Below, in pieces: positions 2,204-43,582 of a stretch of DNA of 45,170 bases. This DNA comes from an uncultured Clostridia bacterium. GTDB taxonomy: Bacteria > Bacillota > Clostridia > Christensenellales > Borkfalkiaceae. Under the pieces are notes generated by a model. That model had not been told where the DNA came from. It saw nothing but the letters and a program-made list of their open reading frames with translations, and did no database searches. Location of the stretch: contig CANQJJ010000010.1 in the NCBI GenBank assembly GCA_947624215.1, forward strand, positions 1 through 45,170, in the 5' to 3' direction. Both the position numbers and the translations under genes were made by a program. The stretch's first letter is position 1, and every line of letters starts with the position of its first letter.

Positions 2204-2221
2204 CAGGTCTACTTTATTCAT

Positions 2222-5981: not shown

Positions 5982-7064
5982 ATGGACGCAAAGACGGTCG
6001 CCGTCGGGCTCTCGGGCGGTGTGGATAGCTCCGTCGCGGCGCTCTTGCTCAAACAGCAGGGCTACCGCGTCATCGGGCTCTTCATGCGCAATTGGGAGGA
6101 GGCGGACGAGAACGGGGTGTGCACCGCAGACGAGGACTTCGAGGACGTAAAGCGCGTCGCCGCACTGCTCGATATCCCTTACTACACCGTCAATTTCGCC
6201 AAGGAATACATGGACCGCGTCTTCTCCTATTTCCTCCGCGAATACAGGGCGGGCCGCACGCCCAATCCCGACGTTCTCTGCAACCGCGAGATCAAATTTG
6301 GCCCCTTTAAGGAGTACGCGAAGGCTCTCGGCGCGGACATGGTAGCCACGGGGCACTACTGCGGCATCTCCCACGAGGACGGCGTCCACCGTCTCTTGAA
6401 GGCCAAGGACCAAGAGAAAGACCAGACCTATTTCCTCTGCCAGCTCTCCCAGGAGCAGCTCAGCGGCGTGCTCTTCCCGCTCGCGGGGCTCACCAAGGCC
6501 GAAGTGCGCAGGATCGCCGCCGAAAACGGGATCCCGACGGCCAAAAAGAAGGATTCGACGGGCATTTGCTTCATCGGCGAGCGGAACTTCCGTAATTTTT
6601 TGAAGACTTACCTCCCTGCGCAACCGGGGCGGATCGTGACGCTTGCGGGCGAGGACGTGGGGGAGCACATGGGGCTCATGTATTACACGCTCGGCCAGCG
6701 GCGCGGGCTCGAACTCGGCGGGAGAAAGGGGGAGGACGGACGGTGGTTCGTCGTCAAAAAGGACCTCGAACAAAACATTCTCTACGTCTCCCACGGCGAC
6801 GAATCTCCGCTCATGAGCAGGGGATGTATCGTGCAGGAGATGAATTACATCCCACCCATGTCCGCGATCGGCCTTTCGGAATGCGGTGTAAAGCTCCGCT
6901 ACCGCCAGAGCGAACAGCAAACGCGCGTGACGATCCTCGACGAAACGAGCGTGCGGCTCGACTTCAAGGAGTCCCAGCGCGCGGTGACTCCCGGGCAGTT
7001 CGCCGTGCTCTATGACGAAGCGGCCTGTTTGGGCGGCGGCGTCATTACCGAGACTTTTTCGTAA
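5982..7064 (+). CDS. mnmA: tRNA-specific 2-thiouridylase MnmA
   Basis: 360 residues, the usual length. MnmA adds sulphur to U34 of tRNA-Lys, -Glu and -Gln using ATP and a persulphide relay. Seen: PP-loop SGGVDSS (residues 10-16), NPDVLCNREIKF with the first catalytic Cys, ATGHY, DQTYFL, ICFIGERNF with the second catalytic Cys, and YTLGQRRGL before the C-terminal beta domain. In that C-terminal domain the sequence reads NYIPPMSAIGLS. Its DNA (6857-6873) closely matches the intergenic module I copy at 22715, and the stretch precedes the conserved KLRYRQ, so it looks like a module-derived insertion. GGGAGG at about 5970 sets the start. TGGTAAAAT at 5947-5955 is a probable -10. Confidence 0.95.
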   Translation: MDAKTVAVGLSGGVDSSVAALLLKQQGYRVIGLFMRNWEEADENGVCTADEDFEDVKRVAALLDIPYYTVNFAKEYMDRVFSYFLREYRAGRTPNPDVLCNREIKFGPFKEYAKALGADMVATGHYCGISHEDGVHRLLKAKDQEKDQTYFLCQLSQEQLSGVLFPLAGLTKAEVRRIAAENGIPTAKKKDSTGICFIGERNFRNFLKTYLPAQPGRIVTLAGEDVGEHMGLMYYTLGQRRGLELGGRKGEDGRWFVVKKDLEQNILYVSHGDESPLMSRGCIVQEMNYIPPMSAIGLSECGVKLRYRQSEQQTRVTILDETSVRLDFKESQRAVTPGQFAVLYDEAACLGGGVITETFS

Positions 7065-7646
7065 ACCTTTCGGACAGAGGGTGTGAGCGTTCACATGATA
7101 CTTGATTGCGGACATGGTACCCGTGGATGCGGTCTCCTTGCTGTCCCTGTAAGGGAAAGTGGCGCACTGCCCTTGTGCGCCGAAAGGGTTTCTCCTCCTC
7201 ATCCGCCCTACGGGCACCTTCCCCAGAAGGGAAGGCAAGGGTCGCTCAAATGAAGTCCGTGTTGTGGTAAGCGCGTCATCCTGAGGCGGAATTATGATAC
7301 AAAGTTCAACACGGCTGTCCCCGAAGGATCCCGAAGTACGAAGTCCGACTATCGTTCACACGGGCTTGGGCGTTACAAGATTCCTTCGCGGATGAGCAAT
7401 TCGCTTAAACTCATACTTGTTCGGCTCAGAATGACGCTCGGGTTGGGCTTGGGTGCGGTTGTGGTAAGCGTGTCATACCGAACGCGGCGCTCTTGCCGCG
7501 TGAGTGTATCCCCTCATACGCAGTCTGACCCCCTTACAGGGGCGCCAAGTGTCGCTTTCACCAACCCTGTCGCACCTCCCCCTTCCCTCCGTTCTCACAA
7601 TGCGGGGATGCATGACGGTGCGCACTTCCGCATAAAATAGGGAGAA
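7065..7646 (-). repeat. Inverted block of repeat modules
   Basis: No gene. The same modules as at 2262-2830 occur mainly in reverse orientation: module I at 7109-7121, a full B module at 7136-7241, the E module about 7262-7350, the C module about 7377-7432, and part of the H module (7528-7551). CATAAAAT at 7631-7638 resembles a sigma-E -10 element (CATACAnT), which would fit the sporulation genes that follow, but no clear -35 was found. Confidence 0.7.
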
Positions 7647-9787: not shown

Positions 9788-11292
9788 AAGAGAAAAACAT
9801 CGAAAACAAGGAGAAAGAGAAGAGGCGGCGCGACCGCGTCGATCTCATCCGCAGCGCCTTCGTGTTCGTGGGGTGCTATCTTGCCCTGCTCGTCGTTGTC
9901 TTTTTCATGATCCTCATCAGCGACTATCCCGCGTGGCAAGACTACTTCACCAAGCACACCACCGAGCTCATCTCCCTCGTCGTCAGCCTCTTCTTTTTGG
10001 CGGGTCTTGTCTTCCTCTACTACCTCTTCGAGGACAGGGCCGCGCTCGTAAAGCCCAAGAACGTCATCCTCGTCTACACGCTGCTCATCGTCAGCCTCAT
10101 CATCTCCTATGTGTTCGGGGAATTCATCCACATCTATTCCCGCCCCGTGGCCGTCTTTGCGCTCCTCGCGCTCTTTCTCATCAACAGACGCCACGCCCTC
10201 TTCCTCAACTTCGTCTTCTGCTTCATGATGTTCGTCATCGACCTGTTCACCGACATCGTCCCCACGATGGACATCAACAGCGAGATCTATTCCACCTTCC
10301 TTTTGAGCTTTATCGGCGGCAGCGTCGCCATCTTCCTCGGCGAACGGGTGAAGACGCGCGGCGGCCTGCTCCTCACGGGCATCTTCATCGCCATGCCCAT
10401 CGCCCTCTTGGTCCTGCTCTTCAACCTGCCCTCCATCGGGGATTGGATCGACTACATCTCCTCTGCCGGGTTCCGCATCATGAGCTGTATCGTCTCGTCC
10501 ATCCTCGCCCTCGCCCTTCTGCCCCTCTTCGAATGGTCGTTCAACCGCCTGACCGTCTTCCGCCTGCGGGAACTCACCTCGACGGACGCCGAGCTGCTCG
10601 TCAACCTCAAGGCCAAGGCGCCGGGGACCTTCAACCACTCCCTCATCGTCGCCCAGCTCGCCGAGAGTTGCGCCGTGGCCATCGGGGAGAACGCCGAGCT
10701 CGCGCGCACCGCGGCCTATTACCACGACGTCGGCAAGCTCAAACAGCCCGAGTGCTTCACCGAGAACCAGACGGACTACAACGTGCACGACGAGATCACG
10801 CCCGAGCTCTCGGCCGACATCATCCGCTCGCACACCAAGGACGGGTATGAATTGCTCATGGAGAAGCACCTGCCCAAGGCCATCGCCGACGTCGCGCTCG
10901 AACACCACGGCACGCTTCCCATCAAATATTTCTACGACAAGGCCATCCGCTATTCGGGCGACGCCGACCTCAAGGATTTCTCCTACCTCGGGCCCATCCC
11001 GCAGAGCAAGATCGCGGCCATCGTGATGATCTCGGACGCCACCGAAGCCGCCACCCGCGCCATGCCAGACCGCTCCCCCGAAAAAGTGGAGAAGGTGTGC
11101 CGCTCCATCATCGAGGAGCGCATGGACCTCGGGCAGTTCGAGGAGTGCGACATCACCATGCGCGAACTCACCGTCATCAAGCAGACCCTCGTCGAGGCGC
11201 TCTCGGGCGTCCATCACCACCGCGTGAAATACCCCGCCATTCAATTCAACCGCGACCGCACCGTCACGAAATCGGAGGAACAGGATGGTTGA
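9784..11292 (+). CDS. yqfF: 7TM-HD family protein, probable c-di-AMP phosphodiesterase (YqfF/PgpH type)
   Basis: 502 residues. Several membrane segments (about 22-47, 60-80, 93-115, 120-150 and on to about 255) are followed by a cytoplasmic HD domain: FNHSLIVAQLAE (about 281-292), YYHDVGK (about 309-315), and LEHHGTL. PgpH-type proteins hydrolyse cyclic di-AMP. The usual family member of about 700 or more residues has a large extracellular 7TMR-HDED domain after the first helix. Here only about 20 residues separate the first two helices, so the sensor domain is absent. The ATGA start overlaps the phoH stop. Confidence 0.88.
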   Translation: MKEKNIENKEKEKRRRDRVDLIRSAFVFVGCYLALLVVVFFMILISDYPAWQDYFTKHTTELISLVVSLFFLAGLVFLYYLFEDRAALVKPKNVILVYTLLIVSLIISYVFGEFIHIYSRPVAVFALLALFLINRRHALFLNFVFCFMMFVIDLFTDIVPTMDINSEIYSTFLLSFIGGSVAIFLGERVKTRGGLLLTGIFIAMPIALLVLLFNLPSIGDWIDYISSAGFRIMSCIVSSILALALLPLFEWSFNRLTVFRLRELTSTDAELLVNLKAKAPGTFNHSLIVAQLAESCAVAIGENAELARTAAYYHDVGKLKQPECFTENQTDYNVHDEITPELSADIIRSHTKDGYELLMEKHLPKAIADVALEHHGTLPIKYFYDKAIRYSGDADLKDFSYLGPIPQSKIAAIVMISDATEAATRAMPDRSPEKVEKVCRSIIEERMDLGQFEECDITMRELTVIKQTLVEALSGVHHHRVKYPAIQFNRDRTVTKSEEQDG

Positions 11293-11791
11293 GACTGCAA
11301 AGGGGAGGCTCATCCTCGACTGCGAGAGCATGGAGGAAGGTCCCCGTAAAACATTGGAAAATGTGCTTTCCGAAGGCTTCGTTTCAGACATGCCCCTCGT
11401 CTTGGAGGTCATGTTCGTGAGCGAGGAGGAGATCCGCGCGCTGAATGCACGCGAGAGAAATGTAGACAAAGTGACCGATGTTCTAAGTTTTCCCGCAGCC
11501 GAACTGACTGCCGGGGAGCCCGTTTCGGCGGGGGAGCACCCGGACTGCGTCGAGCCCGCTTACGACGGGGAAGAGGAGCACATGTACCTCGGCAGCGTCG
11601 CCGTCTGCACGGCACGGGCCAAGGAGCAGGCGCAGGAATACGGCCACTCCGAGGCGCGCGAGATCGCATATCTCATCGTCCACGGGATGCTGCACTGCCT
11701 CGGGTATGACCACGAGCGCGAGGAAGACAGGCGCGCCATGCGCCAAAAGGAGGAGGAGCTCATGGCAAAATTGGGGCTCGCAAGGGAATGA
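11285..11791 (+). CDS. ybeY: Endoribonuclease YbeY
   Basis: 168 residues. Zinc motif HGMLHCLGYDHE (H-x3-H-x5-H) near residues 133-144 and the NVDKVTDVLSFP block. YbeY is a metal-dependent RNase involved in rRNA maturation and ribosome quality control. Overlaps the upstream gene by 8 bp and the downstream era by 4 bp, so translation is coupled. An acidic insertion of about 25 residues (about 70-100) precedes the LGSVAVCT strand. Confidence 0.94.
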   Translation: MVETAKGRLILDCESMEEGPRKTLENVLSEGFVSDMPLVLEVMFVSEEEIRALNARERNVDKVTDVLSFPAAELTAGEPVSAGEHPDCVEPAYDGEEEHMYLGSVAVCTARAKEQAQEYGHSEAREIAYLIVHGMLHCLGYDHEREEDRRAMRQKEEELMAKLGLARE

Positions 11792-12675
11792 AGAGCGGAT
11801 ACGTCGCCGTGATCGGCAAGGCAAATGCAGGAAAATCCACTCTCGTCAACGTGCTCGTTGGCGAAAAGGTGGCCATCGTCTCCCCCAAGCCGCAGACCAC
11901 GCGGGACCGCATCATGGGCGTCCTCACGCGGGAAAATTACCAGATCGTCTTCGTCGACACGCCCGGCATCTACCGCCAGCGCAATGCCCTCACGTCGCTC
12001 ATGATGAAGACCACCGAACTCACGGCGGAGGGAGTGGACGCCATCGTCTATGTCCACGACGGGCACGCGGGCGTCAAGGAAGACGACATCGCCCTCATGA
12101 AGAAATACATGGGCCTCGGCCTCCCCATGCTCATCGCCTACACCAAGATCGACATCATGCCCCGCGAGCGCATCCCCGCCGACGCCAAGGCGCTCTACGA
12201 AGCGGGGGTGACCGCAGACGTGTACCCCGTGTCCGCGAGGAAGGGGATGCGTGTCAAACAAATTGAGGAAGCCATCGCGGCGATGCTGCCCGAGGGAGAG
12301 GAGCTTTTCCCCGGCGACGTCATCTCCGACCGCAGTGAAAAATTCATGGTGGCCGAGCTCATGCGCGAGAAGATCCTCCTCAAATACGAGAAGGAGATCC
12401 CGCACGGCGTGGCCGTCATCGTGAACACGTTCGAGCGGCATGAAAACGGCGCCTATGAGATCTCGCTCGACATCGTGTGCGAAAAGAAGAACCACAAGGC
12501 CATTTTGATCGGCAAGCAAGGGGCGGCGATCAAGGAAGTCGCGTCCTTTGCGCGGCAGGACATGGAGAAATTTCTCGGCGCGAAGGTGTTCCTCACCGTC
12601 TTCGTGAAGGTGCGCGAGGATTGGCGGGACAGCGCGCGGCTCATGAAAGAGTTCGGATACAGCTCGGAGGAATAG
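11788..12675 (+). CDS. era: GTPase Era
   Basis: 295 residues, standard length. G1 GKANAGKST, G2 region PQTTRDR, G3 DTPG, G4 TKID (variant of NKxD), then a C-terminal KH domain with GKQGAAIK. Era binds the 3' end of 16S rRNA and assists 30S assembly. Overlaps ybeY by 4 bp. Confidence 0.97.
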   Translation: MKSGYVAVIGKANAGKSTLVNVLVGEKVAIVSPKPQTTRDRIMGVLTRENYQIVFVDTPGIYRQRNALTSLMMKTTELTAEGVDAIVYVHDGHAGVKEDDIALMKKYMGLGLPMLIAYTKIDIMPRERIPADAKALYEAGVTADVYPVSARKGMRVKQIEEAIAAMLPEGEELFPGDVISDRSEKFMVAELMREKILLKYEKEIPHGVAVIVNTFERHENGAYEISLDIVCEKKNHKAILIGKQGAAIKEVASFARQDMEKFLGAKVFLTVFVKVREDWRDSARLMKEFGYSSEE

Positions 12676-12830: not shown

Positions 12831-13574
12831 ATGGAGTACAAGACAGACGGCCTCCTCCTCAGGTCGGTAAACGTGGGGGAGAGCGACAAACTCGTGACCC
12901 TTCTCACCGCGGACGGCAAGCTCGGCATGGCGATGAAGGGGGTGCGGAAGGCGGGCGCGAAGCTGAATTTCGCGTCCCAACTTTTTTGTTTCGCGGAGTA
13001 CGTCTTCGTCGAGCGCAACCGCCGCAGAACGGTCATCGAGGCCTCCCTGCACGAGGGGTTCTACGGCCTGCACGCCGACCTCATGCGTCTCTACGCGGGC
13101 GCGAGCGTGTGCGAGGTGTGCGACGCCTTGGCGCTCGAACAGATGCCCTGCACCCCTCTCCTCGTGGCGGCCATCGAGGCGCTCAGAGACATTGAGAGCT
13201 CCGACGAGGCACCCATGTCCGCGGTCGTTGCTTTCTTTTTGCGTGCGGTCGCCTTTGCGGGCTATGCCGTCTCGGCGGGAGATTGTCCCCATTGCGGCAA
13301 AAAACTCGTCGGAAGACGGTTTTTCGATATGGAAAACGGCTCGTTCGGGTGTTCGGAGTGTGCCGTGGGCGTTCCCGCGAGCGAAGTCACCTACGATGCG
13401 ATCAAATTTTTCCTCGACGCAGAAAAGGGGGCACCCATGTCCGCGAATGACCCCTCGGCAAAGCCTCCCACGCAGGACGGTTTGGTCCGCGCCGTGCGCC
13501 TTTTGCGTGTCTACATCGCCCATCACGCAGATTGCGATCTCCGCGCCGCCGACGATCTCCTCGCCATGCTGTGA
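12831..13574 (+). CDS. recO: DNA repair protein RecO
   Basis: 247 residues. The N-terminal OB domain starts YKTDGLLLRSVNVGESDKLV, and there is a zinc finger CPHCGKKL...CSEC (about 146-173). RecO loads RecA with RecR and anneals ssDNA. Two loops contain APMSA: AGA-loop positions about 128-132 (DNA 13211-13223) and about 202-206 (DNA 13432-13444), both before variable stretches. Both are copies of the CATGTCCG motif shared with the intergenic modules. The 3' end (codons DDLLAML-stop) is imperfectly duplicated just after the stop (13588-13611). Confidence 0.92.
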   Translation: MEYKTDGLLLRSVNVGESDKLVTLLTADGKLGMAMKGVRKAGAKLNFASQLFCFAEYVFVERNRRRTVIEASLHEGFYGLHADLMRLYAGASVCEVCDALALEQMPCTPLLVAAIEALRDIESSDEAPMSAVVAFFLRAVAFAGYAVSAGDCPHCGKKLVGRRFFDMENGSFGCSECAVGVPASEVTYDAIKFFLDAEKGAPMSANDPSAKPPTQDGLVRAVRLLRVYIAHHADCDLRAADDLLAML

Positions 13575-14060: not shown

Positions 14061-14151
14061 CATTCCAAGGAGCAAGAAACGAAATCCACAAAATCCGAAA
14101 ACGCAAAACATTTTTCACAAAAGAAAGGAGAGGTTTTTTTACAAAAATGTA

Positions 14152-19010: not shown

Positions 19011-19054
19011 GCCGAAAAATTCTCAAATATCCGCAATATCCATCCCAAAATCGG

Positions 19055-22688: not shown

Positions 22689-22704
22689 CATAGAGTACAT
22701 TCGT

Positions 22705-23540
22705 TTAGGGGGTACCATGTCCGCGATAGGGCTCATATAAACGACTTCTCGGCGCCCCTGTAAGGGGAGCTGGCCCGCGGCTCTTGGCGGGCCAGAGGGG
22801 TTTGCGCCTAAGCCCCCCGAGCGTCATTCTGCCCGACGGGGCCCAATCGAAGCGTCATTCCGAGCCGTAACAGTATGGCTTTCAACGAACTGCTCATCCG
22901 CGAAGAATCTTGTTACGACCAAGCCCATGTGAGCGCCCTCTTGACTTCCCTTTTGGGGAAGGTGCCCCGCAAGGGGCGGATGAGGGAGGATGAGGAGAGA
23001 AACCCTTTCCCTCCTCGCAAGGGCCTCGGGGTACTTTCCCTTACAGGGACAGCAAGGGGATGTGCGTTTCCCACCACGGTAATGTGTGTAAGCGTCCAAG
23101 GCATTCTAATCACGTCACCCTGAGCCGAGTCGAAGGGTCACCGCAGTCTTAAAAACAAGGTGATGTTTACTTCGCCTACGGCTCGTGTCGCGCTTAGAAT
23201 TACAAATAGAAGCCTCGCGCGGTCGACTGACGCTCAACATGACGTAATAGAGCGCATGGTCTGCTTATCAAACATCGGACTTCGTTCTTCGGGATCCTTC
23301 GGGGACAGCCGCGTCGGACTCCGTATCATCATTACGGCTCAGGATGACGCACTTACCACCACCGCGGACTTCGTATGAGGGTACCATGTCCGCGCCTAAG
23401 CCCAACCTAAGCGTGCCCCCTCCATGGGAGGGGGGTAGGGGGGTGGGGTGGCGACGGAGTCCATAAAGAACCCGTAACGAGCCTCTCCGCTGCCTATAAA
23501 AGGGGAGGGCGGTATGCGGTCTTATCCCCATATCGGCCGT
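22705..23540 (+). repeat. Intergenic mosaic with a nested insertion
   Basis: No gene. Module I (22711-22724), H (22749-22803), C (about 22850-22920), an altered B (about 22940-23060), D interrupted by J (D left 23109-23168, J 23169-23223, D right 23224-23248), E (about 23277-23350), module I inside a GCGGAC...GTCCGC hairpin (23374-23394), and G (23415-23457). Confidence 0.8.
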
Positions 23541-24722: not shown

Positions 24723-24834
24723 ATGGGCAAAAAGGGGCTCCGTAAGCCCTCGATGCGGGCACGGAAAAATTGCAGGAGACAGAAAACGTGGGTACCATGT
24801 ACGGGATACCGCGTTCAAAACCGCAGGCACAGCC

Positions 24835-25716
24835 CTATTCGTCGGGATGGATGTTTGAGATCTTGCCGTCCTCCCTCAGCGTGACGCGGAAGGTGCGCAC
24901 TTCGAAGACGTGCGGCCGCATCTCATAGACGAGCCCGACCTCCTCGGGCGTGTCCCCGAGCGCCACGGAGCGGAAATCGCCGAGGTATTCTCCGAGCGCG
25001 GAGGCCTTTCCCGCGAGCTCTTCGCTGAGATAGGGGAGGGGATCGCCGCCGATGAGCACCGTCTCGAAGAGGGCGAGCGCATAGGTTACGGCCGTCGGGG
25101 CATGGGAGGTGCGGATGGAGCAATCGGCAAGCCGCCCGCCGATATAGGTGCACCGCGCCGTGTGACCGAGACTGTCGTGAAAGGGGATCTCGGCGATTAT
25201 GTGAGGCTCTCTTTCGGACACGGTACCCTCCGATTGCGTCAGAACTGTTCCTTCGCGGCTCAGGATGCAGAACGCAGACGGGGCTTTGAGGAGGATATTT
25301 TCCCCCGCGGAAAAGATCTTTGCCTGTTCGAATTCCTCCCCGAGATCGACGATGTGAAAGTCCGCGGGCGATTGGATGGAGAGCTGGACCCCGCCCTGTT
25401 TGTAGAGCGTGCAGAGGAGGTCGCCGAGACGCTCCTGCGCGAGCGGCCGCATGGCGGTATCGGTGGGTTGGAAGCGCTCCACGACGACGGCAACGCCCTT
25501 CCCTGTAAAATAGAGGGAGACGTCTGCGGGCGGCGCGAAGAGGAACTCCTCGGAGAAGGTGCAGACGAGGGGATGGCAGCCGGGGCGGAGGAATTCGAGG
25601 AGCACGTTGTCTGCGGGATCGAGCTCGGCGGTGCGTTCGAATCCGTCCACGGTGCCGAGGGGCAGGCCGGCCGCTTTGAGATAGCAGGGTTTCTTTGATA
25701 AAAAAAATACGCGCAT
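24835..25716 (-). CDS. Conserved-looking hypothetical protein
   Basis: 293 residues from ATG at 25716. No signal peptide, no membrane segment. The N-terminus is MRVFFLSKKPCYLKAAGLPLG; the middle has several amphipathic strands (VSLYFTGKGVAVVVERF), suggesting a beta-rich soluble protein; the C-terminus ends ISNIHPDE. I do not recognise a family. A promoter on - may be TTGACA (25749-25754) with TACATT (25727-25732, 16 bp), which would start transcription almost at the ATG. It is divergent from the SANT-like gene and convergent with the cyclophilin-like gene. Confidence 0.7.
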   Translation of the reverse strand: MRVFFLSKKPCYLKAAGLPLGTVDGFERTAELDPADNVLLEFLRPGCHPLVCTFSEEFLFAPPADVSLYFTGKGVAVVVERFQPTDTAMRPLAQERLGDLLCTLYKQGGVQLSIQSPADFHIVDLGEEFEQAKIFSAGENILLKAPSAFCILSREGTVLTQSEGTVSEREPHIIAEIPFHDSLGHTARCTYIGGRLADCSIRTSHAPTAVTYALALFETVLIGGDPLPYLSEELAGKASALGEYLGDFRSVALGDTPEEVGLVYEMRPHVFEVRTFRVTLREDGKISNIHPDE

Positions 25717-25776
25717 CACTATAAAGAATGTATAAGCGGCAAAAATTATGTCAACAATTTGTCCGAGGTGGTCATC

Positions 25777-26343
25777 ATGAATAAAATCAACGGCTACACG
25801 GAAGAGGAGGCCATGGGGCTGATCGAGTATATTTACCTCGGGAAGAATGCGGGCAAGACGCTCTCCTATCTCTTTGAGACGTACGGCAAGGAGCACAGCC
25901 GCGCCAAGGGGAGCGTGCGCAACTATTACTACGCTTTCTTAAAGAAGCAGGACGATGCGCGCGTGAAAAAGATCTTAGACGGCAAGAACCTCGCCGCGGG
26001 GGCCATCAAGCCCTTCACGGAGGAGGAGACGGACGAACTTCTCTCCAAAGTCATCGAGGGGAGAAAGCGCGGGCTGTCGGTGAGGCGCAGTATCATCGAG
26101 GCCTCGGGCGGCGACGAAAAGCAGATGCTCCGCATGCAGAACAAGTATCGGAATCTCTTGAAGAAACAGCCAGAGCGCGTTGAACGGGCGGCAAAGGAGG
26201 CAGGCATGTCCGAGATCAACCCCTTCCTGCAACGCAGATTGGAGCGTGAGATCGACGCACTCTATGAGCGCATCGCGGAGGATCTGCGCAGGGAGAACGA
26301 GCGGCTGCGTGCCGAGATCGAGAAGCTGAAGCAGGGGGATTGA
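25777..26343 (+). CDS. Protein with two Myb/SANT-like helical repeats and a coiled coil
   Basis: 188 residues. Two similar units: residues about 5-55 (YTEEEAMGLIEYIYLGKNAG, then AKGSVRNYYYAFLK) and about 75-130 (FTEEETDELLSKVIEGRKRG, then QMLRMQNKYRNLLKK). Each starts with an acidic helix cap and ends in a basic aromatic recognition-like helix, as in SANT/Myb-type DNA-binding repeats of Bacillota sporulation regulators. The C-terminal about 35 residues form a coiled coil (LYERIAEDLRRENERLRAEI). Probable transcription regulator (inference). The start is set by GAGGTGG at 25764. The GMSE loop at about 143-146 contains the CATGTCCG motif. Confidence 0.75.
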   Translation: MNKINGYTEEEAMGLIEYIYLGKNAGKTLSYLFETYGKEHSRAKGSVRNYYYAFLKKQDDARVKKILDGKNLAAGAIKPFTEEETDELLSKVIEGRKRGLSVRRSIIEASGGDEKQMLRMQNKYRNLLKKQPERVERAAKEAGMSEINPFLQRRLEREIDALYERIAEDLRRENERLRAEIEKLKQGD

Positions 26344-26719: not shown

Positions 26720-26748
26720 ATTTTGTGTGGTGTATGGCATCCTGCCGC

Positions 26749-27400
26749 TCTTGCCTTCCCCAAAGGGGAAGGTGCCCGCAGGGCGGATGAGGAGGAAAAC
26801 CCTTTGCGTAACAGAGAGGTTTTGGAATAGCACCCCCTACCTGTCGCTGACGCGACATCCTCCCCCCTCAGGTATAAGGGGGGAGGCAAGCGTCGGACTT
26901 CGTTTGAGGGTACCATGTCCGCAACGAGGCTCAACTCGAGCGCCATTCTGACCGACCGAGCTCAATCAAAGCGTCATTCTGAGCCGAAAAAGAAAGAATA
27001 GAGCGAACTGCTCATCCGCGAAGAATCTTGCTACGCCCAAGTGTTGTATGAACGAGCAGAAACCCTTTCGGCGCACAAGGGCAGTGCGCCACTTTCCCTT
27101 ACAGGGACAGCAAGGGGGCGTGTGCTTACCACCACCGCGGACTTCGTTTGAGGGTACCATGTCCGCAATCGAGCTCAATGAAAGCGTCATTCCGAGCCAG
27201 CGGAGTATGACTTTCAACGAACTGTCCATCCGCGACGAATCTTATTACGACCAAGTGTTGTGTGAACGAACAGAAACCCTTTCGGCGCACAAGGGCAGTG
27301 CGCCACTTTCCCTTACAGGGACAGCAAGGGGGCGTGCGCTTACCACCACGATAATGCGGTGATGTTTTGACGGGGCTCAACATGACGTAATAGAATGCTC
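26749..27400 (+). repeat. Intergenic mosaic with an I-C-B block in tandem
   Basis: No gene. B (about 26749-26815), the F hairpin (CCTCCCCCCT...AGGGGGGAGG, about 26865-26890), module I (26911-26922), C, half B (27058-27118), then again module I (27155-27166), C, half B (27275-27333), and half of D (27345-27395). The two module I copies are 244 bp apart, so the I-C-B block is a tandem duplication. Confidence 0.78.
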
Positions 27401-27539: not shown

Positions 27540-30500
27540 ATGGCGATCAAAAAGAGAAAATTAAACAGCGAAAAACTGACGCTCGATCTGCACTTCCCCC
27601 TCAATGTCGGCTATGTCGACTACTTCTTGCAGACGGCCGTCTCCATCCAGGTCAAGAGCAGTTTCGAGGAGGCTGTCCCGCTCACCGTGGCAGTCGAGGG
27701 CGGAGACGGGCTCATCGTGCCCTATGAGGAAAATATCGAGGTGCCCTTCGAGAGCGCCGTCGTCCTCGAGCCCAAAAATATCTTCTCACCCGTCTTCCTC
27801 GCAGAATGCAACGAGACGAAGACGGTCACCGTGCGCGTCGTCGCAAAAAGCGATGGCAAGGAACTCGCCGCGGCCACCGCAGAGGTCACCGTGCTCCCCT
27901 TCGACTATTGGGAGGGGCTCACGGGCAATGCCGAGCGCATCGCCGCCTATGTCCGCCCGCGCATCGCGGATTGTTCCGTCATCCTGCAAGAGGCGGGCAA
28001 ACGCCTCAAAAAGTGGCGGGAAGACGCCGAATTCTATGGCTACACGGGGGCAGACAAGAACGCCGTGCGCCAGATCATCGCCGCCATCTATGCCTCCGTC
28101 CGCGCGGTGGGCATCGAACACGACGGGGAAGACGACCTCTACCTGCCCGCCTTGGCCGCAAGGGAGACCTCCATCCTCAGAGACCGCCGTGCCACCCCCC
28201 TCCAGCTCGCCGTGTTCACCGCGGCCTGCCTCGAAGCGGTGCACCTGCATCCCGTCATCGCGGTGGGGAGGAGCGCTATCGGCGTGGGTGTCTGGCTGTA
28301 CGACAGCTGTTTCCTCGACGCCGTCACCGACGATAGCGACATCGTGAGCAAATACGTCTCCGAGGGCATCAACAACCTCAGTTTCTTCGACGTGGAGGAT
28401 CTCTTCCTCGAACACAACGTCGCCTATACCCCCTCCGAAAAGCACTTCAAGGAGAAGCTCGACCGGGGGTACTTCGAGTGCTTCGTAGACGTCCGCCGTT
28501 GCCGCATGGGGGGGACCGCCGTCTGCCCGATGCGCGGCCGCGGTCTCAAAGGCTACGAGATCTACCGCGACGAGGAGATGTCGCCCGAGTCCGCTCCCGC
28601 CCCGCTCCCCGTCTTCAAAGACCTCAAACTCGACGGCAAACAGCCCAAGAACAAGCAGTGGGAGAGGCGGCTTTTGGACCTCACCACCAAGAATACCCTG
28701 CTCTCCTTCACGGGGAAGAATGCCCTGCACCTCGCGGAGGCAGACTGTGACGAACTCTACCGCACCCTCGCCGCACAGGAGACGATGAAGTTGAAGGCAG
28801 ACGGCCGCGAAGAGGCCCCCTTCGGTGCGGGGACGACGACGCAGAAACACGACCTCGCCGCCCTCGAACGGCAGAAGGGCATCCTGCGCGCCCTCACGGA
28901 CAACCGCTCCGCACAGGAGACGGCGGTGAAGTTGCTCCGCAAGAACCGCGAGGCGGTGGAGGAGACGGGCGCCCGCATCCTCTATCTCGCTCTCGGCTTT
29001 TTGCGCTACGTCTGCAAGGAGGACGGCCTGCCCAAGCACGCGCCCATCGTGCTCGCACCCGTGGGCCTCGCCCGCGCCAAGGGCGGGGAAGATTTCTCCG
29101 TTTCGGCCTCCGAGGAGGGGTATTTCGTCAACGCCACCCTGCTCGAATTTCTCAAACAGGAATTCAACATCGACATCCGCGGTCTCGGGGGAGACGTCTC
29201 GAGCCTCAAGATCTCCGAGATCATCGCCATGGTGCGCGCTGAGACGGCGAGCATGAAGGGGTGGGACGTCACGGCAGACGTGTATCTCTCCGCCTTCTCC
29301 TTCCAGAACTTCCTGCTCTGGAACGACGTCCGCACCAAGATAGACGAATTCAAGAAGAACCAAACCGTCGCCGCGCTCTTCGAGGGCAGGTCGCAAAAGC
29401 AGGAATTCCCCGCGCCGCCCGAGGAGGATACGGCCGACCCCGAACAGGTCCTTCTGCCCCTCCCCGCCGACAGTTCACAGTTTTCCGCGATCGCTCTTTC
29501 GGACATGGGTGCCTCGTTTGTGCTCCATGGCCCCCCGGGAACGGGCAAGAGCCAGACCATCACCAACATCATCGCAAACGCCCTCGTGCAGGGCAAACGC
29601 GTTCTCTTCGTCGCAGAGAAGAAGGCTGCGCTCGACGTCGTCAAAAAGCGTCTCGACGCGGTGGGTATCGGCGATTTCTGCCTTGAGCTCCACTCGGGCA
29701 AGACGGACAAGGCGGGCGTTTTGAAGCGTCTCGAAGATACCCTTGCCCTTGCGGGGACGGCGGAGAACGTCTCCTTCGGCGAACGCACGCGCGAGCTCGT
29801 CGCCCTGAGGGAGGAATTGAAGGCACCCATGCACGCGTTGCACATGAAGCGGCGGCTGGGCATCTCCGTCTATGAGGCCATCCTCGAATACCTCAAAAAC
29901 AAGAACGCGCCCGACATCCTCGACATCGAGAGCTCCTTCTACGACACGCTCACCGAGAAAAAACTCTCCGAGTGCAAGACGATGATCTTGCAGGCGGCGT
30001 CGGCGGCCAAGGAGTGCGGCGGCGTCTTCAATTCTCCCTTCGAGAACGTCAACCTCACCGAGTATTCGCAGGAGATCCGCGACCGCGTCTACTGTGCCTC
30101 CGAGGTCATGATCGCCGAGATCCGCCACCTCAAATCCTTTTTGGGGCTCTTCCTCGAATTCTACCGCCAGCGCGTCTCCACCCTCACCCGCAGAAAGCTC
30201 GTCGTCATTGCCGAGATCGCCAAGGGGCTGTCTTCGGGCAGGTATGAGAAGTATTTCGCGGGTGCCAAGGAGGAGGAGTTCTACATCTTCTTCAACGCCA
30301 ACAAGCGCCTCGACGCGGGGCTTGCCTACTATTACAAGCACTTCAAGACGCTCGTCGACCTCGACGACTGCGAAGTGGTGGGGCGCTACCTCGAACTCGG
30401 GGGGGATTGGAAGCTCTACCGCCCCGCCAAGGTGCTCATCAAAAAACTCATGCACGTCGCCTCGCACGAGATCTCGGAGGAGGACGTGCCCAAGTATTTG

Positions 30501-33182: not shown

Positions 33183-33720
33183 CGTCATACCGAGAAGGGC
33201 AACGCCCTTCGAGCGTATCCCCTTGGCACTTTTGAGGCTCAATCGAAGCGTGCCCCCTCCATGGGAGGGGGTAGGGGGTGGGGTGGCGACGGGGCCTGAG
33301 AGAACGTCCCCTTGGCGCCCCTGTAAGGGGAGCTGGCCCGCGGCCCTTGGCGGGCCTGAGGGGTTGGGATGCCCCCCCTACTTGTTGCTGACGCGACATC
33401 CTCCCCCCTCAGGTATAAGGGGGGAGGCAGACGGACTTCATTTGAGGGTACCATGTCTGCGACAAAGCCCAACCGAAGCGTCATTCCGAACGGAGTGAGG
33501 AATCTCTGGCATGCGTTTACATTGTGTATAAGCGGAAACTCCGAGATTCCTCGGCTGTGCCTCGGAATGACGTGTTGACCAAGCCCGTGTGAGCGAACCC
33601 TTGCCTTCCCTTTTGGGGAAGGTGCCCCGTAAGGGGCGGATGAGGAGGGAAACCCTTTCGGCGCACAAGGGCAGTGCGCCACTTTCCCTTACAGGGACAG
33701 CAAGGGGGAGCGTCGGTGTC
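33183..33720 (+). repeat. Intergenic mosaic before ktrB
   Basis: No gene. G (33252-33291), H (about 33310-33366), F (about 33395-33426), module I variant (33448-33460, CATGTCTG), K with both arms (about 33480-33570, stem GAGGAATCTC/GAGATTCCTC), full B (33600-33707). Confidence 0.78.
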
Positions 33721-33772
33721 TCATCTCCTCCGAGGACAGCAAGGGACTGTGCCCTTCCCACCCGAAAATCAG

Positions 33773-35167: not shown

Positions 35168-35700
35168 TTTCGCAGATTTCGCGGGATTGGTTTAGATTAT
35201 TATTTCGCGGGATTTGTTTTCTCTTCGCGTGTATCTCCTTGGCAGAACGCTCTTGTATGCAGCGAAAACAAATCCCGCGAGGGAAATAAACGTCAGCGCC
35301 TTAACATCCATGATCCTCTCGTTCGTTCCATCGGACAACAAGCGCTCAGCGCAAATTGGGTGAAAAAACAAAAAGTGCGATTTTTGTTTTTTCAGTGATT
35401 TGGAACGGTCGGGTCGCGACATGGTACCCCCTTGGCGCCTCTGAGGCTCAATCGAAGCATCATTGTGCCCGACCAAGCCCATCCCGCGCGTGCCCCCTCC
35501 ATGGGAGGGGGGTAGGGGGGTGGGGTGGCGACGGGGCCCGTGTGAGCGAACCCTTGGCGCCCCTGTAAGGGGGGCTCCGCCGATGCCCTTTCGGCGGTGA
35601 GGGGTTTTCTTGCCTTCCCTTCCGGGGAAGGTGCCCCGTGAGGGGCAGATGAGGAGGGGAGCGCATCCGTGGCTACCATGTCCGAGGATGGGGCTTCGGG
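35168..35700 (+). repeat. Intergenic mosaic between ktrB and ktrA
   Basis: No gene. An inverted repeat (35200-35221 with 35264-35289, 17 bp perfect), an AT hairpin (35361-35394), a reversed module I variant (35416-35428), G (35492-35533), H (about 35553-35608), half B (about 35609-35660) and module I (35673-35684). Confidence 0.75.
35361..35394. terminator. A/T hairpin, possible ktrB terminator
   Basis: A 14-bp perfect stem (TGAAAAAACAAAAA / complement) with loop GTGCGA. The T-rich right arm could terminate transcription; no separate T-run follows. Confidence 0.5.
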
Positions 35701-37453: not shown

Positions 37454-37482
37454 ATTATAATCCAAATGCGCGGAAATTGCAA
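37454..37482 (-). promoter_or_regulatory. Promoter of fba
   Basis: On the - strand TTGCAA (37477-37482) and TATAAT (37454-37459), spaced 17 bp. Confidence 0.85.
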
Positions 37483-37586
37483 GGGGATTGGGGAAAATCA
37501 CGGAAATTTTTTCCGCCGCACTTCTCCCATAAGTCATGCTTATATTCATGTAAAGAAACGTTTATGTCATATATGGTACCCGCGCG

Positions 37587-37648: not shown

Positions 37649-40600
37649 ATGAAAAGAACGTTGCGGGTTCTCATCGCGGCGATGTGTGCGGCTCTGATGC
37701 TCTGCGCCCTGTTCGCCGTAGCGGCCTGCGGGCCCCGCGAGGATGAGGGCGGCAAGGAAGAGGGCGGCAAGACGGCCGCGCTCACCCTCGATGCGGGGGA
37801 AGGCACCGTTGCAAACGGCAATTACGAGGTGGAGGTCGGAAGCGATCTCTTCGAATTTCTCAAAGACAAAACACCGACGCCGCCCGAGGGGCTCACCTTT
37901 GCGGGATGGTATCTCGGGAACGCTCCCATCGAAAAGGGCACTACCATGTCCGAAAGCGGGGCTTCTGTAACCGCAAAATACTACGCGGAATATACGCTTG
38001 AGATCTATCTCGAAGGCGACGGCGGGTTCCAAAGATCCGAGGAAAACAGCAAGACGTCGACCGCCTTCTACGGCGAGCCGCTCACGCTCGAACTTCCCTC
38101 CATTGCCCACTATGCGCTCGACGCGGCCCATGAGGGCAGTAAGACTGCGAGCGAAAAACTCGGCAAGGACGAGGTCTTCAAGGCCTATTATGCCCTTGCG
38201 ACTTACACCGTCATCTACGACGCCGCGGCGCCCGCAGACGCAGGGCTCGAGGGGAACGTCTCCTCTGCCGAGGTCCGCTACGGCGGGGAAGTGACCTTGG
38301 AGGGCGGCGAGGCCTATGTCGTTGCGCCCCAATACCGTTTCGCGGGCTGGGCGGAGACAAAGGGCGGCCCCGTGAAGTATCAAAAGGGCGACAAGATCAA
38401 GCCCGAAGACAACGTCGTGCTCTACGGCGTGTGGGATACGGCCTGCAAGGACCGCTTCGGCGGGAGCGACCTGCTCTTCTTCCCGCAGGCAGACGAGGAC
38501 GCGGCCGTTCTCGTGCGCGCGGGCGAAGAGTTCACGGGCACGCGCAGCGGCGAGACCTTCTCCTTCAAGGATAGTGAGGGCAATGAGCTTCTCAGCGGCA
38601 AGGCCGCGGCGGGCGTGTTTGTCTACTACCGCAGGGCGCTTGCAAACGTTACATACCGGCATGCCGACGCCTACACGGGCGAGGTGGAGGCGGACAGCGA
38701 GACGCTCACCTTTGACGGATACGGCGGCGCGACGTTCACCGACGCCGAAGTGGCGCACAAGGGCACGATCGAATACGATCCCGCGCTCATGACATATACG
38801 TTCACCTACGAGAATTCCAAAGAGGGCTTCGGATTCACGCTTTCCGAGGCGGACGGGACCGACATTTTCTGCGTCGAGGGCAGAGAGGCGGGGTCTTATA
38901 TCAATTTGATACTCCTCTATCAGCAGGGCGCTGCCGAGGCCTACCAAGGCGATCTGCTCCTGCTCGACGGCTACGGGATCGCCTACGTCATCGACGCCGA
39001 CGACTATTCCGATCACGGGATCATCTCCCTTCTCGGAGCGGGAACGTATTTGCCCCGCGGCGACCATGGCGAGATCGGCCTCACCCTCATGGATACGGAG
39101 GGCAACATGGCGGAGTCCACCGTCAAGCTCATGAACTATCAAAACGTACCCGTGTGGTTTGCGGATACCGGCATCGCGGGCGAATACACTGCCGCGGACG
39201 GGACGACGCTCACGCTCGATTCCTACGGGGCGACTTACGACAGCGCCACCTATCAAGGCAAGGACGGCGTGAAGACGGCGGGCATGTACACGGTGGACCC
39301 CCTTCTCAACATCGTGCGGCTCATCCCCGAGGAGGGGGACGTCATCTCCTTCCGCGTGGACGTGACGACGCATGCGCTGACCCTGCTCGGCGGCGGCGAC
39401 TACCGGGAATATCTCCGTCATTACGGCGCATCGGGCGCCTCACCCGTCGGCACCCCCGTGCTCACGCTCGGCGAGAACGATACGGCGACTTACGGCGCGG
39501 GAATGAACAAGATCGAGGGTACCGTGTCCGCGGTCGAGGGCTCTAAGACGCGTTTCACGTTCACGGCGAACAGCGGCACGTTCGCGTTCGAATATGAGCT
39601 CGGCGAGGCTCTCGTGACGGTCGGCGGGCAATATGTCTATGCCTACTACTTCGATATGTATCCCGTGCAGGGAACGGCCGAGACCGTGCTCACGCTCACC
39701 GAGAAAGAGGGCGGCAAGGGCACCATCGTAGCCACGCTCAATGCGCTCGGCAGCGGCGACGCCGTCTATACCGACGGGGTGGGGAACAGCTACCTCGGCG
39801 TATATCTCACGCTCGACGGCAAAACATTCGGGGTGGAGTATTCGATCGCGGAGTTCATGGTCAACGCCACGGGCGAAAACCTCTACTTCGGCATCGAAAA
39901 GAATGCGGACGGAGCTTACGCCACGTTCTTTGTGCTCGGCTCCGAGACGGGAACTTACTACCAATATGCGGGCGGGGAGACCCACGAAGATGTCTCTCTC
40001 TTCCTCATCCAAAACGGCAATACGCGCATTGCTTTCTATAAGAACGGCGCGGAGGATGCGGGCATGGTAGGCACCTACACGCTCAACAAGGACGGCGTGG
40101 GCACCGTGACCTGCGACAAAACCACCCTGACGGTGCTCATCGACAACGACGGGACCTTCACCGTGCACACGCATCTTTGGGAGGGGACGAAGAGCTTCAC
40201 GGGCGGCGGACACACGCTCACGCTCGACGGCTTCTACACGGCGACGTACGACGGCGACCCTATCGAATATGCCTTCGTGAAGGACTCCGAGACGCGCATC
40301 TTCCTGCTCGGGTACATCGGGCAGGAACTCTTCGAGGGATACTTCGACATCGACACCGAGAAGGGAACGTATACCGCGTGCGGCTACGAGGTGGGGACGT
40401 ATTACGACGAAGCTTCCGACGACTTCTTCGCGCTCGACGGCTACGGCACGGTAAAGCTCTATAATATCACCGAGCAGAACGAGAACGGCACGCTCAAGGT
40501 GCTCAAAACGGGCACCTACACCGTCATCACCGACGGCTACGACGACGCAAACATCTATGTGCGCATCACCTACACGGGCGAACAGCCCTTCGACGCCCTG

Positions 40601-43582
40601 CTCTATGGCGTGAGCGACGGCGAAGAGATCACGCTCTTCTACCGCGTGAAGGACGGGGCGGCGGGCACCTACAAGTCGGCCAAGTGGGAGTTCTTCACCT
40701 TCAACGGCTTCGGCGACGCCTATTATACCGACGCATTCGGCATCACCTATGAGGGGCAATATGAGAAGCGCTCCGAGCATGTCTATGCCTTCTCGTCGGA
40801 GAATCTGGATGGCATCGTCTATCTCGAGCTCGCGGCGCAGAGCTTCACGGTCCGCACCACGGGTTTTGTCACCGACGGCACCACGCTCGTCAAGTACCTC
40901 GGCGGCGATTCGAAAGACATCGTCATCCCCGACACTATCACCAAGATCGCAGATTTGGCCTTCTCCGAACACGTCTATGGGTCGGACTACGAGGGCGCGG
41001 CGATCGCGTCGGTCGACCTCAAAAATGTCACCGAGATCGGCGCGAATGCCTTCAACGGCTGTGAAGAACTGAAGAGCGTCACGGGCGCGCATGTAAAGAC
41101 GGTGGGCGACAATGCCTTCTATGCCTGCATCGAGCTTTCTTCCCTTTCCATGGATGCCCTCGAGACCCTCGGCGAGAACGCCTTCCACCTCTGCGAGTCC
41201 CTCGTCAACGTGAGCCTTCCCGCCGCGAAGACGGTCTACTCCTCGGCATTCAGCGATTGCCATGAACTCGAGACGGTCTCCCTGCCCAAGGCCGAGAAGA
41301 TCTACGAGGGCGTGTTCTTCGATTGCTTCATGCTGCAAAGCGTGACGATCGGCTCTGCGCTCACGCAGCTCGGCACGGCCGATGAGCACGTTGCGGGCGT
41401 CTTCGAGCGCTCTGCGGGCTACGACCAAGTCCCGCTCACCCTCATCCTCGAGGGGACGACGGTGCCGAAAGACGTGTGCGGAGATCTCTTTGCCGGTGTG
41501 ACCAACTACACCGTAAAGGTGCCTACCATGTCCGTGGTCAAGGCCTTCTACGCGGCCGCCGCCTGGGCAAAATATAACCCTTATGTGGGTGCGCCCTCGG
41601 CGTATGACGGGGTCTATTTGCGAACCTATTCGGACACGATTGAATATCTTGTGCTCGATGTGCTCGCTGTTTTCCATGATGTCTACGGCTACCAGGAAAG
41701 CACAAGGCGCGCTTATGCGGTAGAGGATGGAAAGCTGATGCTTTATACCTTTGCTCCCGATGAAGAACTGAAATACAATGTTGCTTACGCGGGCGATGTC
41801 GATGCCGAAAACAGTACGATTTTCTATGATGTCGACAACTATGGAGAGGACTATAGGGATTACTATTGGGCGACCTTGGCAAAAGGCGGCAAGCCCTATA
41901 CTATGCAAAATTCCAATGATACGGGCGAGGTCTTGAAGGTCACATTCACGCGGCCGCTTGATGAGGGGAACGATGCTGTTTTCGTGACCGACAAGGGCGT
42001 TGAGAAGGCTGTTGTTATCAAGTCCCTTCGCGACGAGGATCAGTACAACAAGTTACGGATGTATTTTGACCTTGATGGCTGGAGATATTATCTCGGCTTC
42101 TCGGGGAACATGACGTCATCGCCGTGGTTCTCTTACGATACGCCCGCGTTTATCCCTATCGTGAAGCAATATTTCAACGATACAGACTATTTGGCTGTCT
42201 CGCAGAATGATGTGGACGGCACGGAGTACACCGTGACGTTTGTCCTCAACGGCTTCGACGAACCTATCCGCGGCATTCAGGTCAAAGCAGAGAAATCGGG
42301 CAATTTGTTCACAGCCAAGAGCTTCATATTCGGTGAAAACAGCTATGTGTTCCGCTTTACGGTAGATGAAACGGCAGGTACGTTCTCCTATGAATACGAG
42401 AGCGAACGGCAATGGAAATTCAGTGCAGACAGAGCCGATTTGGTCGTCAACCAAAACACGGAAGGGGAGCTCACGAGCATATTCCTTTCTGTGGATGGCA
42501 CGCTTCTTACGGAAGGGAAAGATTATGTCCTTGATAAGCAAGGGGATGTCTACATCTTCACGATCTATCAGTATTCCGCGGCAAGCATGTACTCTGCAAC
42601 GTTTACGGTCGGCACAGAGGTCAGCTGCGAATTTGTAAAGATCGGCACCGTTGTGAAGGGGCAGAGCCAACTTTCGATCGGCCAAGCGTTCCTCTACTTC
42701 GGCGATGATTCAGAACTTCTCGATGTCGCTTTGCTGCTCGACCGCAAAGAAGGCGGCGACCGCGTTTATGTAAAGCCCGATCATGTGGAATGCGAAGGCG
42801 GGCTCGTGACGGCTGTCGTTGATACGGGCGACTTTGCAGGTAAATACTTTGTGAAGTATTCTGAATACGGCTTGGATTTCTTCATCAAGGAGACTTTTGT
42901 CTACGACTCGTCCGCAGATTCCGATGAAGAGGGGACCTTCACCGTCAAGCGCGATTCACAGAATTCGGTCACCGAGGTCTTGCTTACCATCGGCACGAAG
43001 AACTATACGAAGTATTGGGAAGGGGACGAAAACTTCATCGTCACGGACGATACGGATTACTACTTTATCACGTTCTCAGGTCTCAGCTCCCGTATTGCGA
43101 AGCTCGTTTGCCAAACGGTCGAGGATGCGTCCACCGATTTTGTGCTCACGATTCTTGTCGATGCAGGTTACAATAATATCCAAAAGATCCTGTCTGCAAC
43201 GATTGGCGGTGAGCCTGTCAACGCTGAGTATCAAGAGACAGGCAGCCGCTATAAGATCACTGCGGGCGGCAAGGTGTATTATCTGACGCTCGGAGAGACG
43301 AGCGAACTGCAGGCGCTCATCCAGAAAACGCTCACGACCGCCGACGGGAACTTCCGTATCACAGGCTATTTCGACGACAATTGCAAGCTGGTCGGGCTTA
43401 CTAAGTTCGAAACAATGATCAACGGCGTTCTTACGGAGCGTGAGATCACTTATTCGTGGGATACCGGTTGTGAGGTGAAACCTTCTGCGGAGTATTCTTA
43501 CGAATCATACAACTTTGAGTTCAGCGGGGATACGCTTGACACGCTCACTGTCACCGTGACGCTTTCGCCGTACTCTTCTTGA
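37649..43582 (+). CDS. Giant surface lipoprotein with InlB-like and BspA-type leucine-rich repeats
   Basis: 1977 residues. Signal with AVAAC lipobox (Cys27). About 75-265: InlB/Listeria-Bacteroides-type repeats (LTFAGWYLGN; YRFAGWAETKGG...VVLYGVWD). About 350-1080: at least six units built around a LxLDGYGxAxYxD core followed by GTYTV strands. About 1088-1250: five to six BspA (LRR_5) units such as KTVGDNAFYACIELSSLSMD, ending in the usual linker VKVPTMSVVKAFYAAAAWAKY. About 1315-1977: an unrelated beta-rich region whose codons are visibly less GC-rich. No sortase motif, so lipid-anchored. Probable adhesin. AAGGAGGT at 37637-37644 fixes the start. Confidence 0.85.
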   Translation: MKRTLRVLIAAMCAALMLCALFAVAACGPREDEGGKEEGGKTAALTLDAGEGTVANGNYEVEVGSDLFEFLKDKTPTPPEGLTFAGWYLGNAPIEKGTTMSESGASVTAKYYAEYTLEIYLEGDGGFQRSEENSKTSTAFYGEPLTLELPSIAHYALDAAHEGSKTASEKLGKDEVFKAYYALATYTVIYDAAAPADAGLEGNVSSAEVRYGGEVTLEGGEAYVVAPQYRFAGWAETKGGPVKYQKGDKIKPEDNVVLYGVWDTACKDRFGGSDLLFFPQADEDAAVLVRAGEEFTGTRSGETFSFKDSEGNELLSGKAAAGVFVYYRRALANVTYRHADAYTGEVEADSETLTFDGYGGATFTDAEVAHKGTIEYDPALMTYTFTYENSKEGFGFTLSEADGTDIFCVEGREAGSYINLILLYQQGAAEAYQGDLLLLDGYGIAYVIDADDYSDHGIISLLGAGTYLPRGDHGEIGLTLMDTEGNMAESTVKLMNYQNVPVWFADTGIAGEYTAADGTTLTLDSYGATYDSATYQGKDGVKTAGMYTVDPLLNIVRLIPEEGDVISFRVDVTTHALTLLGGGDYREYLRHYGASGASPVGTPVLTLGENDTATYGAGMNKIEGTVSAVEGSKTRFTFTANSGTFAFEYELGEALVTVGGQYVYAYYFDMYPVQGTAETVLTLTEKEGGKGTIVATLNALGSGDAVYTDGVGNSYLGVYLTLDGKTFGVEYSIAEFMVNATGENLYFGIEKNADGAYATFFVLGSETGTYYQYAGGETHEDVSLFLIQNGNTRIAFYKNGAEDAGMVGTYTLNKDGVGTVTCDKTTLTVLIDNDGTFTVHTHLWEGTKSFTGGGHTLTLDGFYTATYDGDPIEYAFVKDSETRIFLLGYIGQELFEGYFDIDTEKGTYTACGYEVGTYYDEASDDFFALDGYGTVKLYNITEQNENGTLKVLKTGTYTVITDGYDDANIYVRITYTGEQPFDALLYGVSDGEEITLFYRVKDGAAGTYKSAKWEFFTFNGFGDAYYTDAFGITYEGQYEKRSEHVYAFSSENLDGIVYLELAAQSFTVRTTGFVTDGTTLVKYLGGDSKDIVIPDTITKIADLAFSEHVYGSDYEGAAIASVDLKNVTEIGANAFNGCEELKSVTGAHVKTVGDNAFYACIELSSLSMDALETLGENAFHLCESLVNVSLPAAKTVYSSAFSDCHELETVSLPKAEKIYEGVFFDCFMLQSVTIGSALTQLGTADEHVAGVFERSAGYDQVPLTLILEGTTVPKDVCGDLFAGVTNYTVKVPTMSVVKAFYAAAAWAKYNPYVGAPSAYDGVYLRTYSDTIEYLVLDVLAVFHDVYGYQESTRRAYAVEDGKLMLYTFAPDEELKYNVAYAGDVDAENSTIFYDVDNYGEDYRDYYWATLAKGGKPYTMQNSNDTGEVLKVTFTRPLDEGNDAVFVTDKGVEKAVVIKSLRDEDQYNKLRMYFDLDGWRYYLGFSGNMTSSPWFSYDTPAFIPIVKQYFNDTDYLAVSQNDVDGTEYTVTFVLNGFDEPIRGIQVKAEKSGNLFTAKSFIFGENSYVFRFTVDETAGTFSYEYESERQWKFSADRADLVVNQNTEGELTSIFLSVDGTLLTEGKDYVLDKQGDVYIFTIYQYSAASMYSATFTVGTEVSCEFVKIGTVVKGQSQLSIGQAFLYFGDDSELLDVALLLDRKEGGDRVYVKPDHVECEGGLVTAVVDTGDFAGKYFVKYSEYGLDFFIKETFVYDSSADSDEEGTFTVKRDSQNSVTEVLLTIGTKNYTKYWEGDENFIVTDDTDYYFITFSGLSSRIAKLVCQTVEDASTDFVLTILVDAGYNNIQKILSATIGGEPVNAEYQETGSRYKITAGGKVYYLTLGETSELQALIQKTLTTADGNFRITGYFDDNCKLVGLTKFETMINGVLTEREITYSWDTGCEVKPSAEYSYESYNFEFSGDTLDTLTVTVTLSPYSS

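Follow-up and report, generated by a model that had tools for sequence, protein, structure and literature searches.

KOPS, SRS and Chi are over-represented chromosomal motifs, and motifs of the Chi type are skewed to the leading strand. The sites of Noc in Bacillus subtilis and of SlmA in Escherichia coli are palindromes, with about 70 per genome in the case of Noc and 24-52 in that of SlmA, and both are comparatively scarce in the region of the terminus (PMC4726725). Uptake sequences, known from Pasteurellaceae (USS) and Neisseriaceae (DUS), are evenly spaced (PMC1939737), and those of Pasteurellaceae are biased towards gene termini (PMC2346458). HIP1 (GCGATCGC) of cyanobacteria, a palindromic octamer tied to orphan methyltransferases, varies strongly in number between related species (PMC4390886).

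The motif described here was found in a window of 45,170 nucleotides, which is the whole of contig 10 of an 87-contig, 1.98-Mb genome (G000) of an uncultured Clostridia bacterium whose relatives include Candidatus Borkfalkia, Coproplasma and Gallimonas. The analysis, which used its own gene calls, covered about 1.2 Mb of G000, the contigs of which are unordered, and 90-200 kb from each relative; copies in other species were counted as the exact 9-mer. A first-pass annotation of the window had described an 8-mer, CATGTCCG, dispersed between and within genes, with a chance level of one or two copies per 45 kb. All 15 exact copies are present, two of them one position away from where they had been placed (13436 instead of 13435, and 22716 instead of 22715); shuffling gives an expectation of 1.72, and none of 100 shuffles reaches 15. 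The 14-mer GGTACCATGTCCGC, to which the intergenic copies had been said to extend, occurs exactly at 7108 (-), 22711, 23380, 26909 and 27153, and near-matches to it were found at 24791, 33447, 35415 (-) and 39518.

Genome-wide, CATGTCCG occurs 630 times, CCATGTCCG 493 times and the 14-mer 83 times, against 21, 5 and 0 occurrences of the respective reversed patterns. A third-order Markov model had been set beforehand as the comparison that could refute the motif, and in 815 kb the counts lie far above its expectation, with 263 copies of CATGTCCG (29.5 expected), 217 of CCATGTCCG (6.9 expected, a 31-fold excess) and 138 of ACCATGTCCG (1.3 expected). Under the same model, CCATGTCCG and the overlapping TACCATGTC and TACCATGTCC, the latter 137-fold over expectation, top the lists of over-represented 9-mers and 10-mers. 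One-off variants of the motif, mainly transitions, are in excess as well. The excess extends beyond the repeat-rich gaps, as 143 genic copies of CCATGTCCG compare with 37 after synonymous-codon shuffling. The proposal of a dispersed chromosome motif, lying both within and between genes, is borne out.

Around its 8- to 14-mer core, the motif extends to ~45 bp; it is asymmetric and degenerate, with 25 bits and the consensus GAC..cAWA.G.GGnTACCATGTCCGCGAt..GG..tt....A. The PWM, an iterated matrix of 25 bits trained on G000, finds 470 sites in 815 kb and 5 in the reversed sequence; 167 of the 470 are sense, 188 antisense, 111 intergenic (~24%) and 4 on gene edges. Over most of the chromosome there is about one site per 1.4-1.7 kb, in either orientation and in genes as well as gaps, which would amount very roughly to a thousand sites per genome. 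After correction for codon position, the bases preferred in sense and antisense genic copies alike include A at -16 and C at -15, A at both -11 and -9, A or T at -2, G at +8 and A at +25. In the pooled set, GAC (-17 to -15) and a G run (-7 to -4) are prominent, and intergenic copies share the GAC, the G run and the G at +8. A test for palindromy found the matrix asymmetric, the sole inverted element being a short GAC/GTC. The sites are also spaced, with 32 gaps below 300 bp against 86 expected when sites are shuffled within 10-kb tiles and with an excess of gaps of 400-1600 bp; the number of site-free genes matches a Poisson prediction, and both ends of genes are depleted of sites. At L070:17195 and 17222, two intergenic cores are oriented towards one another at a distance of about 26 bp; uptake sequences are known to occur in such pairs too. 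An RNA hairpin was considered and rejected, the short fragments that were folded, which lacked the full GCGGAC arm, giving no stable structure.

Sites in the window illustrate this placement. Antisense copies lie at 2181..2209 (-; in gene 1277-2203, with an acyltransferase domain; exact core CCATGTCC at 2185-2192; PWM 32.4), at 6331..6359 (-; in mnmA, 5982-7064; perfect core with weak flanks; PWM 18.6) and at 29497..29525 (-; in the DUF4011/MTES_1575 helicase gene 27540-33149, assigned by Pfam; PWM 31.3), and degenerate antisense sites at 10247..10275 (-; gene 9784-11292; PWM 22.3), 11382..11410 (-; gene 11285-11791; PWM 32.3) and 40056..40084 (-; CCATGCCCG; PWM 24.5), the last in the gene of a large LRR_5/Flg_new protein (37466-43582; Pfam). 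The same gene holds three sense sites, at 37927..37955 (+; PWM 33.1), 39505..39533 (+; CCGTGTCCG; PWM 32.9) and 41509..41537 (+; PWM 34.1). Further sense sites are found in mnmA at 6839..6867 (+; core 6856-6863; PWM 33.6), in gene 11788-12675 at 12210..12238 (+; degenerate; PWM 22.0), twice in recO (12831-13574; RecO Pfam match) at 13196..13224 (+; PWM 27.8) and 13418..13446 (+; PWM 32.6), in the minus-strand gene 24835-25716 at 25212..25240 (-; CCGTGTCCG; PWM 36.3) and in gene 25759-26343 at 26187..26215 (+; core GCATGTCCG; PWM 24.0). Between genes, sites occur at 7106..7134 (-; exact GGTACCATGTCCGC), at 22698..22726 (+; 14-mer 22711-22724) directly downstream of rplL, at 24778..24806 (+; near-match GGTACCATGTACGG) and at 35659..35687 (+; PWM 32.8) upstream of gene 35756-36409, and in composite repeats at 23367..23395 (+; 5' arm GCGGAC, 3' arm GTCCGC), 26896..26924 (+), 27140..27168 (+) and 33434..33462 (+; one mismatch, GGTACCATGTCTGC).

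Some of the genes encountered deserve mention in their own right. Gene 14241-18395 encodes 1384 residues, has no Pfam match and lies in the longest part of the window that is free of motif sites. The 1869-residue protein of gene 27540-33149 combines DUF4011, AAA helicase and MTES_1575 nuclease-like domains and resembles defence-type proteins. Outside the window, a giant open gene (L285:14521 to L286:17632), over 20 kb long, runs off contig 14 and has one motif site in the final 17.6 kb.

According to the improved gene calls, 72 copies of CCATGTCCG are intergenic, 74 are sense and 68 antisense. The word TACCATGTCCG is found 57 times in genes against 1.9 under synonymous-codon shuffling, and the encoded peptides TMS (50 against 17) and GTMS (15 against 1.4 expected) are likewise in excess. 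The codon phase noticed in the window recurs as a strong bias, since 55 of the 74 sense copies read ATG TCC, 18 read CAT GTC CGN and one is in the third phase. Antisense copies are equally biased, 64 of 68 being in one phase, and because the preference is present in both orientations it gives no indication of a translation signal; the disfavoured phases would probably require rare Cys or Trp codons. The motif acts at the DNA level.

The excess of the + strand reported for the window (11:4) stands there, but it disappears genome-wide, where 316 copies are on + and 314 on -. A strand-polar segregation guide of the KOPS/SRS type, or a mini translation start, had been among the roles first suggested, and polarity could draw on the 11 of 15 window copies and on a slight preference for the majority-gene strand (98/71). 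It is contradicted by the genome-wide balance, by the near-equal numbers of sense and antisense copies and by neighbouring sites, which share their orientation in 217 of 429 cases. The sites are over-represented as KOPS, SRS and Chi are, but they lack strand polarity and are much longer. Half of the genic copies being antisense, and copies arising through ungapped substitution, a mini translation start fares no better, and we give next to no credence to either role.

The window also holds composite intergenic repeats, at 2241-2968, 13688-14111, 18553-19013, 22740-23470, 26740-27395, 33224-33762, 35445-35660 and 43651-43936, which are made up of several short repeat families such as CAAGGGCAGTGCGCCACTTTCCCTTACAGGGACAGCAAGG, GCGTGCCCCCTCCATGGGAGGGGG, GGCGCCCCTGTAAGGGGAGCT and AAGCGTCATTCTGAGCC; in addition, two adjacent 133-bp direct repeats, 98% identical, occupy 5572-5837. 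One explanation, a small mobile module, had been raised by the first-pass annotation as well. Such a module, or a REP-like one, having spread both into genes and into the gaps, would fit the intergenic share of the sites, many of which in the window lie within composite repeats and some of which carry GCGGAC/GTCCGC arms. The comparison of genic copies with orthologues that lack them speaks against it, as 63 of 81 pairs align ungapped, and nearly all pairs did so in a later test. The mnmA codons change in place, and the antisense site at 6331..6359 in that gene is an ungapped substitution relative to 30 congeners. Moreover, the partner arm CGGACTTCGT is intergenic in 132 of 136 cases, whereas the core is mostly genic, and the 14-mer has 42 matches in total in IMG/VR, all of them single. 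A mobile module is accordingly very improbable; a mobile-looking context belongs only to some intergenic copies, namely those inside the composite repeats. The alignments show substitution, and not insertion, to be the origin of the copies. A phage origin was likewise rejected, none of the 42 matches in viral contigs being repeated within a stretch.

Among congeners, copy number ranges from ~500 down to background. The PWM finds 39 sites in 200 kb of G050, against 0 in the control, and detects the motif in the majority of the 20-kb stretches sampled from G009, G041 and G016, while no motif dialect was seen in 160-200 kb each of the low-copy species G019, G012 and G001. Copies are conserved in place where the motif is abundant. 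At the mnmA copy at 6856, the codons ACC ATG [TC]CC G stand at the homologous place in six other high-copy congeners, whereas low-copy congeners have other codons, mostly of the FPP type; near-matches to the recO site at 13196..13224 likewise occur at homologous codons of L129, L132 and L147. Across all aligned sites, and at comparable protein identity, a motif hit occupies the same position in 44 of 99 cases for high-copy species and in 1 of 86 for low-copy ones. The DNA of the core is more conserved than its flanks in high-copy species (identity 0.77 against about 0.71) and less so in low-copy species (0.59 against about 0.68). The high-copy species do not form a single clade in the mnmA tree, so that gain and loss of the motif are not firmly separable.

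A further property of the distribution is a large domain in which sites are scarce. Site density in contigs 1, 2, 11, 37 and 39 of G000 is 0.83 per 10 kb in coding DNA and 0.51 per 10 kb in intergenic DNA, compared with 6.13 and 8.71 elsewhere. These contigs comprise more than 200 kb of ordinary genes, such as those for ftsZ, a sigma-70 factor, purA and pyrG; their GC3 is 0.740 against 0.794 in the motif-rich part, their intergenic gaps are shorter and almost devoid of the intergenic repeats, sampled words of the composite repeats being nearly missing from contigs 1 and 2. The orthologous stretches are depleted in four other species too, and of the orthologues examined, 99 of 99 for motif-poor genes lie in motif-poor stretches of other species and 88 of 96 for motif-rich genes in motif-rich ones. 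In G041, contig C2 has no CCATGTCCG from 93.7 to 197.2 kb (103 kb) and adjoins there a motif-bearing part. In G050, the matches listed include none in C5, a single one within the initial 80 kb of C4 and none within the initial 54 kb of C1, and the domain boundaries fall inside contigs 1 and 4. The placement of orthologues, together with boundaries inside contigs, indicates that the domain is a conserved feature of the chromosome. Motif-poor and motif-rich genes are equally conserved (median protein identity 71.7% and 70.7%), so that the gap is not explained by protein constraint. Mis-binning of contigs C1 and C2, which deviate in tetranucleotides and have few repeats, was considered and rejected, as ftsZ is single-copy there, four other species are motif-poor in the orthologous stretches, and both G041 and G050 have the boundary within contigs.

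The position of the domain on the chromosome is suggestive. The motif-rich contigs hold dnaA (C40), parB (C9) and rplKAJL (in the window), and in the motif-poor contig C11 a run of genes on + gives way to a run on -, with a weak, corresponding change in skew. The placement of dnaA, parB and rplKAJL and the switch of gene runs in C11 both fit a domain containing the replication terminus, which, the contigs being unordered, is no more than suggested; a dif site was searched for and none was found.

How such a distribution came about can be explained in several ways. In an uptake-like process, motif-bearing DNA would be preferentially taken up or recombined; mutation and homologous replacement would build up the motif in the genome, and the individual site would serve no function in the cell. 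The parallels with USS and DUS are extensive (PMC1939737, PMC2346458) and include hundreds of copies in both orientations, mostly genic location, a short core flanked by degenerate sequence, an excess of one-off variants among which transitions predominate, origin by substitution, regular spacing and an altered protein sequence, as in the excess of GTMS; ComEC, moreover, is present in 24 of 24 congeners. Uptake thus accounts for most features of the sites. It does not predict a conserved motif-poor domain that spans over 200 kb and holds ordinary genes, and the gene ends are depleted of sites, whereas Pasteurellaceae uptake sequences favour them (PMC2346458). The type IV pilus-type ATPase T2SSE is patchy, with a strong match in 6 of 24 genomes (G000, where it lies at C26:23203-24336, G012, G041, G051, G001 and G052). 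A strong match (PilB/ComGA type) is absent from the high-copy species G050, G016, G009, G046 and G002, whereas G012, which has one, holds 11 copies. An uptake sequence read by a pilus is thereby weakened. The present case also differs from USS and DUS in that most of its high-copy species lack a recognisable pilus ATPase and in its Clostridia host. Together with a recombination- or repair-linked process, uptake is the strongest rival, though we consider it unlikely.

The recombination- or repair-linked process would involve a motif that is Chi-like or, through methylation-directed repair, HIP1-like; conversion would create and keep this motif where it is active, and conversion would be weak in the motif-poor domain. 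The higher GC3, longer intergenic gaps and greater number of repeats of motif-rich DNA are what a recombining region would have, and the wide differences in copy number between congeners recall HIP1 among cyanobacteria (PMC4390886). Like HIP1, the motif is highly iterated, occurs on both strands and varies in number between species (PMC4390886). However, Chi-type motifs are short and strand-skewed while the motif here is ~45 bp long and non-polar, and HIP1 is an 8-bp palindrome whereas the present sites are long, asymmetric and restricted to a domain. This explanation seems about as improbable as uptake.

The reading that we place first, tentatively and at somewhat less than even chances, is that the sites form a binding-site array through which a putative protein marks the chromosome, leaving out a domain in which the terminus probably lies. 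A long motif shared on both strands, positional conservation, whole absence in some lineages and avoidance of one domain are best accounted for by a DNA-binding factor acting in trans. Territory marking is ranked above uptake because uptake does not predict the motif-poor domain and because the pilus ATPase is missing in five high-copy species; the GC3 and intergenic gaps of the motif-rich part fit a recombination-linked process as well. We infer both the DNA-binding reader protein and its role in marking. A sequence-specific protein of this kind would read the sites and mark or organise the chromosome outside the motif-poor domain; its function may be similar to territory marking by Noc or SlmA sites, in the timing of division or in segregation, and loss of the reader would lead to decay of the sites. 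As with Noc and SlmA, sequence-specific sites extend across the chromosome and are scarce in one large domain, the identity of which with the terminus is here presumptive. Unlike those short palindromes, the present sites are asymmetric, ~45 bp long and roughly a thousand in number. A second ParB of the Noc type is an unlikely binder, as 22 of 24 genomes have a single ParB-family protein.

Taken as a whole, the sites may represent an undescribed chromosome-marking system of Clostridia, with about a thousand long, asymmetric, evenly spaced sites, a putative reader, one unmarked domain and gain or loss as a whole between congeneric species, a possibility that we regard as rather doubtful in this full form. 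If it is true, a dense sequence code tags most of the chromosome in uncultured gut bacteria and leaves one domain untagged, and this code has reshaped protein sequences, Gly-Thr-Met-Ser, for example, being ten-fold over expectation. As congeners span the range from ~500 copies to background, the reader protein should be findable by comparison of gene content, and finding it would make it testable how genome-wide motifs arise, persist and vanish.
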